A stretch of DNA of 64,000 bases. Source: an uncultured Prevotellaceae bacterium (GTDB lineage: Bacteria; Bacteroidota; Bacteroidia; Bacteroidales; Bacteroidaceae). The stretch lies in the NCBI GenBank assembly GCA_947167515.1, contig CAMVIM010000017.1:1-64000 (forward strand). Direction: 5' to 3'. The position numbers and the translations under genes were made by a program. Below the pieces are notes generated by a model. It was not told the origin of the DNA, made no database searches, and saw only the letters and a program-made list of their open reading frames with translations. Positions 17,321 through 42,419 of the stretch are shown piece after piece. Each line of letters begins with the position of its first letter. Position 1 is the first letter of the stretch.

Positions 17321-17337
17321 TAGCCTGACGACAATCT

Positions 17338-17435
17338 AAAAATTCATGAATAATTCGTGGTTAATTCATGGTCATTCGTGTTTTATCTTTAACATCAATT
17401 TCCATGAATTAGCCACGAATTACTCATGAATTTTT
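17338..17435. repeat. Long palindromic intergenic repeat (AATTCGTGG family), copy 1
   Basis: Two 34-base arms (17338-17371 and 17402-17435) pair with two mismatches around a 30-base loop. Arms contain ATTCATGA and AATTCGTGG. It lies between converging genes; its right arm runs into the stop codon of the M20 gene, and it may end transcription from both sides. Copy 2 is at 20294-20390. Confidence 0.8.
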
Positions 17436-18651
17436 ATTTTAGCGAGGAGAGCAACTTCACATACAGCGAGATGGCATCGTCTATCTCGCTGATTTTTATG
17501 TATTCGTCTGCCGTGTGGGAGCGAGCCGAATCGCCTGGACCCAGTTTCAGCGAAGGGAAACGCATCAAGGCTTGGTCGCTCAACGTGGGAGAGCCAAATG
17601 GTTTCAAGCCTTCTTTAATGCAAGCCTGCACAAAGGGATGCGACTCGTCTATCTTTGAGGAAGACAGACGGAAAGAACGGGCTTTCAACTCCGAAGTGAG
17701 ATGCTCCTGGAAGAAAGCAAAGATTTCCTCATTCGTGTAGCACTCATTGCTGCGCACATCGATGGTGAAGGTGCAGGTGTCGGGAATGACATTATGCTGA
17801 GTGCCGGCATTCACGATGGTGACCGTGTTCTTCACAGGGCCCAACAAGTCCGTCTGCTTGGGAAACTGCCACTCCGAGAGCCACTGGATGTCCTTCATGG
17901 CATGATAGATGGCGTTGTCGCCCTCATTCCGCGCCGCGTGACCAGCCTTGCCATGCGCCGTGGCATCAATCACCATCAGCCCCTTCTCCGCAATGGCAGG
18001 TTGCATGCCCGTAGGCTCGCCCACGATGGCAAAGTCAATCTTCGGCAAGAGGGGCAACACACTCTCGATGCCGTTCTTGCCTGAGACCTCCTCTTCGCAA
18101 GAAGCCAGAAAGACGATAGAAGACCCCCTCTGTCCTGCGGACATCTCCCCCGTAATGGGGAGACCATCCGGCTTGTTTCCCAATGACAAACATCCCGCAT
18201 GGACTTCCTCCCCATTACGGGGGAGGGTTGGGGAGAGGGTCTGGATGAACGCCTGCAGCAGTGCTACCAGACCGCCGCCACAATCATTGCTGCCAAGACC
18301 ATATAGCCTATCGCCCTCCACCGTAGGCGTGAAAGGGTCGCGTTGCCAACCAGCCACAGGTTTCACCGTGTCAATATGGGCATTGAGCAAGATGGTAGGC
18401 CCCCTCCCAACCTTCCCCAAAGGGGAGGAGAGCCGTCCGGATGGGTCTTCCCCCCTTGGGGGGATAAGAGGGGGGCTGGCACACCACACATTGTTGCCGT
18501 GTCGCTGAGGGTTCAGCCCCTTCTTCTTCATATACGCCTCCAGCACATCGGCCGCAGCCCCCTCGTCGCGGCTCACGCTGGGCGTGGCAATCAGCCTTTT
18601 CAGCAGTTCCACCGCCTCTTTTGTCTGTTCCGAGCAGTTCTTTTCCATCAT
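17434..18651 (-). CDS. argE: M20-family deacetylase (ArgE-type) with two in-frame repeat insertions
   Basis: A cytoplasmic zinc deacetylase/peptidase of the ArgE/DapE/M20 family, here most like Bacteroidetes acetylornithine deacetylase of arginine synthesis. Metal and catalytic motifs are intact: NAHIDTVKP, GLGSNDCGGG, ASCEEEVSGKNGIES, VGEPTGMQPAIAEKG, GHAARNEGDNAIY, AGTQHNVIPDTCTF. At 405 residues it is some 50 longer than I expect for this family. The excess falls in two proline/glycine-rich stretches, PPLIPPRGEDPSGRLSSPLG and LPRNGEEVHAG...DGLPITGEMSAG. They are encoded by palindromic GC-rich repeats (18399-18476, 18121-18242) that keep the reading frame. It has its own promoter, divergent from the ECF sigma gene. 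The substrate is inferred. Confidence 0.85.
   Translation of the reverse strand: MMEKNCSEQTKEAVELLKRLIATPSVSRDEGAAADVLEAYMKKKGLNPQRHGNNVWCASPPLIPPRGEDPSGRLSSPLGKVGRGPTILLNAHIDTVKPVAGWQRDPFTPTVEGDRLYGLGSNDCGGGLVALLQAFIQTLSPTLPRNGEEVHAGCLSLGNKPDGLPITGEMSAGQRGSSIVFLASCEEEVSGKNGIESVLPLLPKIDFAIVGEPTGMQPAIAEKGLMVIDATAHGKAGHAARNEGDNAIYHAMKDIQWLSEWQFPKQTDLLGPVKNTVTIVNAGTQHNVIPDTCTFTIDVRSNECYTNEEIFAFFQEHLTSELKARSFRLSSSKIDESHPFVQACIKEGLKPFGSPTLSDQALMRFPSLKLGPGDSARSHTADEYIKISEIDDAISLYVKLLSSLK
18121..18242. repeat. Palindromic GC-rich repeat inserted in the M20 gene (element B)
   Basis: Ends are near-perfect inverted repeats (AGACCCCCTC and GAGAGGGTCT). Inside, CTCCCCCGTAATGGGGAG (18145-18162) and its exact reverse complement (18208-18225) form an 18-bp stem. 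It is read through in frame by the M20 gene and adds about 40 residues between the segments LLQAF and IVFLASCEEE. Features resemble a non-autonomous palindromic mobile element. Confidence 0.75.
18399..18476. repeat. Palindromic GC-rich repeat inserted in the M20 gene (element A)
   Basis: A 78-base (26-codon) element with inverted ends GCCCCCTC and GAGGGGGGC. It has internal hairpins (CTTCCCCAAAGGGGAG; CCCCCCTTGGGGGG) and a near-palindromic centre CCGTCCGGATGG. It lies between codons for NNVWC and PTILLNAHID. The same central 12-mer occurs in the intergenic repeat at 42332-42404. Confidence 0.75.
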
Positions 18652-20411: not shown

Positions 20412-21266
20412 ATGAAAAGACTTTTTCTGTCCCTGCTCACAGGGATAGCAGCCCTCTGTGGCTCTGCTCAGACGAAAGACAGCGTGGACGTTTCACAGTT
20501 CACCGTCGTGTATGACTATGCCTGCAAGACCCGCATGGGCAAGACGGGCGAAAACATCACCGACACCATGCGGCTGGCGGTGCAGGTGGGCACGAAGTTG
20601 AACCGCATGATGGAGTATTACTGGTACGACTACTTCATCCATCGCCACCGCAAGGAGGATGTGCTGCACGGCATGTGGTCGCACTGTGTGAACATGATGC
20701 CAGAGTGCATCTACACGAACTATCCCGAGGGGAAACTGACCACCCGCGAAGGCGTGGTGCCGAAACCCTACGAGACCACCCAACCGATGAACACCATCCA
20801 GTGGCAACTCAGCGCAGACACCGCCACCATCGCCACCTATCCCTGCAAGAAGGCGGTGGGAGAGTTTGGCGGCAGGACATGGACGGTCTTCTACACCGAC
20901 GAAGTGCCCTCCACCGCCGGCCCGTGGAAACTGCATGGCTGTCCGGGCTTGATTGTCCGTGCCGACGACAGCGAAGGCATCCACCATTTTGAACTGAACG
21001 CACTCATCAACGAGCAGTTGGCCATCCGCTACGAGCCTAAGCCCAATTATGTGCGCATGGACAATGCCAAGTTCATCAAGTTTCGCAACGGACTCTTCTG
21101 CAATCCGCGCTACGTGCAAGACCCACACTATTGGCTCTCGGCTGGCGACAACATTCAGGTGCAGTCCTACATGTGGGGACCCACCGACTGGGTGGAATAC
21201 TACAACGGCATCTATTCGCCCCACAAGGACAATGTGCGCTACTACCAGCCGTTAGAGCTGAAGTAA
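20412..21266 (+). CDS. GLPGLI-family secreted protein
   Basis: A 284-residue exported protein (signal peptide MKRLFLSLLTGIAALCGSAQ). It carries the family signature GPWKLHGCPGLIVRADD (here HGCPGLI for the usual GLPGLI). The family is restricted to Bacteroidetes and has no known activity. As is common, the next gene encodes an outer-membrane barrel, here 354 bases away across a repeat-rich gap. Confidence 0.85.
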   Translation: MKRLFLSLLTGIAALCGSAQTKDSVDVSQFTVVYDYACKTRMGKTGENITDTMRLAVQVGTKLNRMMEYYWYDYFIHRHRKEDVLHGMWSHCVNMMPECIYTNYPEGKLTTREGVVPKPYETTQPMNTIQWQLSADTATIATYPCKKAVGEFGGRTWTVFYTDEVPSTAGPWKLHGCPGLIVRADDSEGIHHFELNALINEQLAIRYEPKPNYVRMDNAKFIKFRNGLFCNPRYVQDPHYWLSAGDNIQVQSYMWGPTDWVEYYNGIYSPHKDNVRYYQPLELK

Positions 21267-21267
21267 A

Positions 21268-21357
21268 GCCCCCCAGCCCCCGAAGGGTGAGGGCATCCGC
21301 GACGATTTTTCCTTAACGACACAGACAATGTTCCCTTTTCCCTCTTGGGGGGCGGAA
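21268..21357. repeat. Palindromic C/G-run intergenic repeat (element C)
   Basis: Starts GCCCCCCAGCCCCCGAAGGG and ends CCCTCTTGGGGGGCGG, giving inverted ends like elements A and B of the M20 gene. Its middle contains CGATTTTTCCTTAACG, a motif also found behind glyS. Confidence 0.55.
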
Positions 21358-21377
21358 GGCTCCTCCACAGCCTCTAA

Positions 21378-42310: not shown

Positions 42311-42331
42311 TGTCTTTTTGAAAGTTAAAAG

Positions 42332-42404
42332 TTAAAAACTAAAAGTGAAAAGTTTAAGTTACTTGCCGTCCGGATGGATGATATTTTTCACCTTTAGTTT
42401 TTAG
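42332..42404. repeat. Inverted repeat between GH43 and xylB (GTGAAA family)
   Basis: TTAAAAACTAAAAGTGAAAA pairs with TTTTTCACCTTTAGTTTTTA at 17 or more positions. The loop holds GCCGTCCGGATGG, the same 13 bases as the centre of element A in the M20 gene. It may lower read-through from the symporter-GH10-GH43 genes to xylB. Confidence 0.7.
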
Positions 42405-42419
42405 TTGTTAGTTTTTATT

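Follow-up and report, generated by a model that had tools for sequence, protein, structure and literature searches.

Palindromic elements dispersed in frame through protein-coding genes of an uncultured Prevotellaceae bacterium and its relatives

Short palindromic repeats carried within protein-coding genes were reportedly described by Ogata et al. from Rickettsia (the Rickettsia palindromic elements, or RPEs; 2000 and 2002) and from Wolbachia (the Wolbachia palindromic elements, or WPEs; 2005). Passages in three papers present RPEs as short palindromic repeats of several families that lie in frame in conserved protein genes (PMC2229807, PMC10969869, PMC3733652), and passages in single papers give their length as 105-146 nt, report a Rickettsia guanylate kinase with an RPE to be translated and active (both PMC2229807), and place nearly half of RPEs within genes (PMC10969869). 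WPEs, in a mention in PMC3733652, are protein-coding palindromic repeats by the title of the work. Among small elements with terminal inverted repeats (MITEs), part of PMC2229807 describes ERIC/RU-1, RU-2, RU-3, the Correia 107-bp element and QMITE as primarily intergenic, several with target duplications and 5'-TA ends, and as occasionally forming in-frame fusions; there, the 107-bp form of Correia, which has open frames, is intragenic and the stop-rich 155-bp form intergenic.

We analysed a 64,000-nt stretch of DNA (the window) from an uncultured Prevotellaceae bacterium, whose genome assembly, G000, holds 3.68 Mb in 74 contigs and is 98.85% complete. Two palindromic elements lie within one gene of the window, as follows:

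17434..18651, minus strand: gene for an M20 family deacetylase (ArgE/DapE-like) of 405 residues, host of two in-frame palindromic inserts
18397..18477, minus strand: element A, an 81-nt palindromic element with ends AGGCCCCC...GGGGGGCT and core CCGTCCGGATGG, read as SPPLIPPRGEDPSGRLSSPLGKVGRGP
18415-18438 and 18439-18462, unstranded: inner arms of element A, 24 nt, 79% complementary, around the core
18433-18444: the core of element A
18121..18242, minus strand: element B, a 122-nt palindromic element with ends AGACCCCC...GAGGGTCT, read as about 40 residues
18145-18162 and 18208-18225, unstranded: arms of a perfect inner inverted repeat of 18 nt in element B

The first-pass annotation had placed two palindromic elements in frame inside an M20 gene, and this is borne out by a single reading frame (17434-18651, minus strand) that stays open through both elements and leaves the gene intact, by their inverted ends (AGGCCCCCTC/GAGGGGGGCT in A, 10-nt repeats in B, each 90%), by their inner stems, and by the dispersed copies described below. 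The limits given for element A, 18399-18476, are better drawn at 18397-18477 by its inverted ends. Element A is 68% GC; Rickettsia, in contrast to the GC-rich elements here, is AT-rich. At 81-122 nt the present elements also differ from RPEs, for which a passage in PMC2229807 gives 105-146 nt.

The host belongs among the M20 deacetylases, with Pfam matches to Peptidase_M20 in two stretches and to M20_dimer. Its closest solved chain is 3ct9, 'Acetylornithine deacetylase', which shows gaps at both inserts; this homologue and the family alignments agree with the prediction that the insertion points are loops. H92, D94, D123, E187/E188, E212 and H379, which we take to be the M20 metal and catalytic positions, are invariant in a 44-row alignment, so that the catalytic motifs remain as first described, and the inserts measure about 27 (A) and 40 (B) residues where 26 and 40 had been estimated.

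Both elements recur in the genome, contrary to the possibility, raised at the outset, that they occur nowhere else. BLASTN finds 25 matches to element A, self included (the second best 91% over query 6-82), and 9 to element B, self included (second best 86%), so the dispersal expected of them was found, but mainly within genes and not in the intergenic places anticipated. A covariance model built from 10 A copies gave 47 hits at E up to 1, a figure that counts both strands and whose weakest hits are partly chance; because this search scored 150 of 1,576 first-look candidates, the numbers of sites given here are minima. In G000 the 12-nt core CCNTCCGGANGG is present 21 times, against once for its reversed control. 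Sorted by hand, the sites comprise 23 of A type (full, half or composite), 6 of B type and 4 of a third palindromic family, C, with the sequence AGACCCTCCCCTCACCCTCCCT..., and A and B are each a dispersed family of palindromic repeats. Two candidates were left out of the count: C24:12689 (L076), which the model hit weakly and whose hairpin is unrelated in sequence, and C25:23855 (L064), a chance match to the core. As in MITEs, the copies have terminal inverted repeats, AGNCCC...GGGNCT or close variants in 21 full copies of A, B and C, a likeness that is partly by construction given that these copies were found by searching for such motifs. The assembly contains two copies of a gene with an A insert for a CHC2 zinc-finger primase-like protein (L011 on contig C28, L012 on contig C13); their flanks differ slightly, and they reflect either duplication or assembly overlap.

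The sites that lie in frame inside long ORFs number 22 of 23 for A, 5 of 6 for B and 1 of 4 for C, where a site is called genic, by hand, if a long ORF crosses the insert, and where C1:22898 (a B copy at whose edge the upstream gene seems to stop) counts as not genic. The share for A thus differs from that of RPEs, nearly half of which are genic according to a passage in PMC10969869. Pfam matches over the cut-off were found for 25 of the 26 host ORFs scanned, a set that includes L017 and L021, overlapping pieces of one gene, and leaves out the second primase-like copy, L011; the exception is an MFS protein that scores below the cut-off. Under common names that we partly presume, the hosts of A, B and C include leucyl-tRNA synthetase, MiaB, RNase HII, RecO, MutY and a DNA topoisomerase. 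Further hosts are CTP synthase, MurF-alanine racemase (two sites), AroE, TrpA, CobJ/CbiC, phosphoglycerate mutase, an iron-sulfur assembly protein (DUF59), the CHC2 primase-like protein (two copies), a PIF1-like helicase, GH95, GH3, GHL10, DPP IV, a kinase/RapZ-C protein, a polysaccharide flippase, a nucleotidyltransferase, the MFS protein, a protein with a carboxypeptidase-regulatory domain, and the M20 enzyme (two sites). For TrpA, a plus-strand ORF across the copy was dropped; it is the minus-strand ORF that carries the Pfam match. In 14 hosts the insert lies within or splits a single Pfam domain match: GH95, RNase HII, CTP synthase, the iron-sulfur assembly protein, DPP IV, TrpA, RecO, GH3, the nucleotidyltransferase, the topoisomerase, phosphoglycerate mutase, MutY (NUDIX), the flippase and the M20 enzyme (element B). 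The insert of CTP synthase falls between query residues aligned to 128 and 127 of 9kao, and that of RNase HII between residues 112 and 117 of 7uwe. Separately, a D-like element at L306 ~1501-1577 (contig C3 of G000) seems, by eye, to encode a hydrophobic stretch and lipobox (IALPLWGLGGLSSC), a possible case of co-option in a lipoprotein signal peptide.

Across 16 genic A segments, 3-6 of the six frames are open (5-6 in 12 of them, 3-4 in the rest), one open frame being forced for any segment lying in an ORF; the intergenic A copy has 3, and of ten other intergenic palindromes, which are 27-48% GC and in several cases share the core, nine have none. Composition explains most of this contrast, since shuffles differ likewise: those of full-length A copies have about 3 open frames, and those of the AT-rich palindromes fewer than 0.5. 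If ORFs cover 93% of the window (a greedy estimate, probably high) and five of the six frames are open, filtering by frame would by itself make 79% of tolerated insertions genic, so that no targeting to genes need be invoked. We observed 21 of 22 (duplicate primase counted once), which departs from this null at P = 0.04, or P = 0.07 if all frames are taken as open, a weak enrichment against a simple null; the striking point is that depletion from genes shows no sign. The frame reading HPDG is used in 14 of 21 copies (P = 0.002), and in 5 of the 8 with all three frames open, which is suggestive only of a preference, the test having a 1/3 null that ignores stops and scoring AroE, perhaps a fifteenth HPDG case, by another motif.

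The window also holds palindromes outside genes:

21267..21362, unstranded: palindrome judged by eye to resemble a further family, D, with a weak R1 match (E 0.05); it starts right after the stop of the gene 20412-21266
42321..42415, unstranded: AT-rich palindrome with 31-nt arms, 81% complementary, and the same 12-nt core at 42366-42377

The second of these is outside recognised genes and has no open frame. The core CCATCCGGATGG or one-base variants of it are found there and in the non-genic palindromes L062, L063 and L065-L070, on arms quite different from those of A. Another AT-rich palindrome, at 17337-17436 of the window, extends over the 3' end of the M20 gene; its 46-nt arms are 87% complementary and none of its frames is open. 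Similar AT-rich palindromes lie outside genes elsewhere in G000. The pairing of genic A with AT-rich palindromes resembles the Correia case, in which the open-frame form is the one in genes. Elements abut stop codons elsewhere too (a B copy at L002, two sites in the relative G003), and the 3' ends of genes may be a second refuge for elements.

In two relatives, G017 and G003, we picked sites not seen before from the listed matches; the two have sites in common with G000 and do not count as independent samples. Nine of the 11 sites in G017 lie in frame in ORFs, the others being one intergenic and one ambiguous (C15:2767), as do 10 of the 12 in G003, where the other two abut a stop codon; in these counts the ArgC sites of both genomes were called genic by hand as apparent N-terminal extensions, and a G003 site beside DUF59 was called intergenic, though the longest ORF from an upstream start runs through it. 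Pfam scans of eight of these ORFs gave seven matches over the cut-off, the eighth being an outer-membrane barrel match below it. The hosts include alanyl-tRNA synthetase, leucyl-tRNA synthetase (two further inserts), aspartokinase-homoserine dehydrogenase, phosphopantetheinyl transferase, a semialdehyde dehydrogenase that is presumably ArgC (one insert being the apparent N-terminal extension), an AAA protein and a dicarboxylate symporter. One leucyl-tRNA synthetase gene of G003 (L303 863-3943, contig C82; 1026 residues) has at least three in-frame palindromic inserts.

Element A has matches in 23 of 45 genomes of the genus, from 0 to 27 per genome, with 10-27 in G000, G002, G003, G005, G011, G013, G014, G017, G026, G063 and G066. 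Among 393 genomes of the order, long matches to A are found in G000 only, and 19 others have end modules of 27-44 nt; element B matches 12 of the 393 and family D 3, G000 included in each and the others short, all of these being lower bounds with at most two candidates scored per genome. None of eight short hits in other genera (L307, L315-L321) is in a convincing gene, the largest spanning ORF being of 174 residues. Full-length element A is thus seen only in this genus among the genomes searched and, from this small sample, the in-gene habit may be special to it. Many of the related records come from the rumen, reticulum or other ruminant gut, which suggests the gut of ruminants as the habitat.

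The comparison of orthologous loops shows how far the inserts differ between species, and it contradicts the prospect that all close homologues would carry the same two segments. For the M20 gene we compared 30 proteins, its own and 29 from relatives of the same genus, among further matched relatives. Most have gaps or other sequence at the two segments, as had been predicted. Loop A holds element A in three (G000, G003, G017), family D in three (G005, G007, G023), and short GC-rich remnants in two (G027, G035); in the other 22 its sequence is short or of another kind. In loop B, B-type sequence is found in three (G000, G003 and, diverged, G035), and repeats of AATGGG/CCCATT type in G001, G006, G015, G023 and G027. 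Across the 51 loci parsed of 80 named GTDB loci, loop A has 12-13 residues in 42, 18-19 in five and 31-34 in four, and the last (L141, L146, L147, L171) resemble G017, G007, G005 and G023 by sequence.

Joined-flank queries for 12 other host sites, of which the primase-like one gave a single weak match, left 11 for comparison, with orthologues in up to seven relatives and 69 sequences, one of them (RecO of G014) containing unreadable bases. At all 11 sites the insert is absent from at least one relative, and its presence, family or length varies at the same loop. Different families occupy one loop in PyrG, MiaB, MurF, CobJ/H and both M20 loops. The AroE loop is filled in G000 only (none of six others). 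In CTP synthase (PyrG), a half and a full A occupy the loop of G000 and of G017; G013 and G026 have B there, and G003 has C next to a B end. The loop is empty in G002, G014 and G035, the empty state of G014 being possibly a deletion scar. In MiaB, B is found in G000 and C in both G003 and G017; G035 has a different insert, and G002, G013 and G026 have none. Element A fills the MurF loop of five species including G000, while G002 has C there, G013 a short D-like remnant and G035 no insert. For CobJ/H, four species including G000 carry A, G013 carries B, G014 carries another insert and G035 none. In G003 the RecO and TrpA loops (L286, L278) hold tandem repeats of another kind (LSTVNSPLSTVNS; CTGTCAACTGTCAACTG), so that these loops also accommodate repeats that are not palindromic.

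Loops with an insert are usually missing some codons that the empty ones have (SPNFDESK in M20, much of the CobJ/H linker), perhaps through later deletion, and thus the description of peptide inserts holds as to frame, but the insertion does not resemble a clean addition (in M20 the residues S-x-x-FD-x-x-K are missing). The M20 tree pairs G017 with the element-free G026 (100/94), yet over its 5' part the G017 gene shares 90% identity with the query, against 66-81% for most of the relatives that matched only there, which points to recombination. With 17 of its 27 inner branches open and bootstrap not settled, the same tree leaves room for a single gain of element A in the M20 gene followed by losses.

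From these results we conclude with considerable confidence that A and B belong to small, non-autonomous palindromic elements whose copies have spread through the genome and persist mainly inside protein-coding genes. The elements are dispersed, are alike at their ends in full copies, keep the frame when inside genes and, in the hosts compared, sit at loops of variable length; their presence and family depend on the species. Because related species carry different elements, or none, at the same spot, they look like mobile DNA. We envisage that a factor acting in trans inserts or copies them, probably at the cost of some target bases; that insertions which shift the frame or add a stop are purged, while those in frame in variable loops are nearly neutral; that elements would also pass between species by homologous recombination of the conserved surrounding gene; and that deletion may remove them, leaving short remnant loops. 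The transcript would be translated straight through, with neither splicing nor bypass, and, judging from the reading frames, the inserts would be read as extra protein loops rich in Pro, Gly and Ser.

We think it rather unlikely, if a serious possibility, that the inserts are not mobile units at all and multiplied only through ectopic recombination, template switching or gene conversion between GC-rich hairpins, as by-products of replication or repair and with no transposase. We reject a Y1 transposase as mobiliser for lack of any PF01797 match in G000 (98.85% complete; controls positive in 5 of 14), and this fits such copying, as does the lack of a consistent target duplication among 21 copies, two of which have a possible one (CTATCA at CobJ/H, CCTG at MutY). 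The missing codons point the same way, as do half, tandem and nested elements, such as the half A beside a full A in PyrG and the C next to a B end in G003, and the CobJ/H insert, which in G003 is 84/84 identical to that of G000 where the flanks are 82% alike and which could reflect repeated insertion or local conversion. Undirected copying, however, would not be expected to give like ends in the full copies of three families, and the copies in unrelated genes have no flanks in common. The lack of a Y1 match also bears on REP/BIME repeats with RAYT: the present elements share with them a palindromic, dispersed and sometimes paired half-unit form, but REPs are extragenic by name, whereas 22 of 23 A-type sites are genic. 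From the MITEs they differ likewise in being mainly genic and in having no consistent duplication.

That the inserts are kept for a function, as an mRNA hairpin tuning translation or stability or as a loop altering enzyme regulation, we regard as improbable. Folding of the mRNA strand places element B far beyond its shuffles (z -7.9), which favours this reading; element A is only modestly beyond (z -1.9), since its GC-rich shuffles fold too, and because it folds only slightly above them the case for an element rests on the copies and not on folding. When insert and coding flanks are compared in 14 filled pairs from six hosts, the insert proves the more conserved in eight, equal in two and less conserved in four. 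Such retention sits poorly with presence, family or length changing at the same loop in all 11 hosts, and with hosts that have no visible common pathway.

It is very improbable that RNA processing, or ribosome bypass at the hairpin, removes the insert and lets the protein keep its normal loop. Although the hairpin of B is strong at the mRNA level and the hosts include highly conserved proteins, the copies are in frame and free of stops in the frame used, which neither splicing nor bypass would require; inserted lengths and boundaries vary, and Rfam gave over the window region only sub-threshold microRNA, CRISPR-repeat and snoRNA hits, which we judged to be chance. A last alternative, that surface loops with GC-rich codons simply vary in length and have been taken for mobile elements, fits the variability of these loops among relatives but is already refuted: stretches of 80 nt that closely resemble one another recur in unrelated genes, in either orientation and read in more than one frame.

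Building on our preferred reading of small elements that spread and persist in genes, we offer a more tentative extension, possible but on balance doubtful: that they are interchangeable palindromic cassettes living in genes, whose like-ended families compete and replace each other in permissive loops, travel with their genes from one species to another, and leave short scars that turn into ordinary loop sequence.

The suggestion that the two elements in one gene are a Bacteroidetes counterpart of RPEs is supported, the likeness being one of behaviour, drawn from descriptions and not from sequence: palindromic repeats of several families lie in frame in conserved genes, and are absent from some orthologues. 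WPEs are, by title, of the same protein-coding palindromic nature, in another phylum. Our search of CC-licensed PMC papers found no earlier account of such elements in Bacteroidales. The present families differ from RPEs in phylum and lifestyle, in genic share, and in exchange between families, with a single loop occupied by one family or another depending on the species.

Rickettsia and Wolbachia are the best-known carriers of in-frame palindromic inserts, and weak selection in intracellular bacteria would be the obvious excuse for them there. Here such inserts occur in a gut Bacteroidales genome of 3.7 Mb, and their hosts include a cell-wall enzyme and a tRNA synthetase as well as CTP synthase and RNase HII. 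Natural controls exist in the relatives whose corresponding loops are empty or hold other families, so that whether repeats create new protein segments, and at what cost, is testable on orthologous enzymes that differ mainly in the loop. If the cassette system were true, it would amount to a continuing natural diversification of loops in core enzymes.
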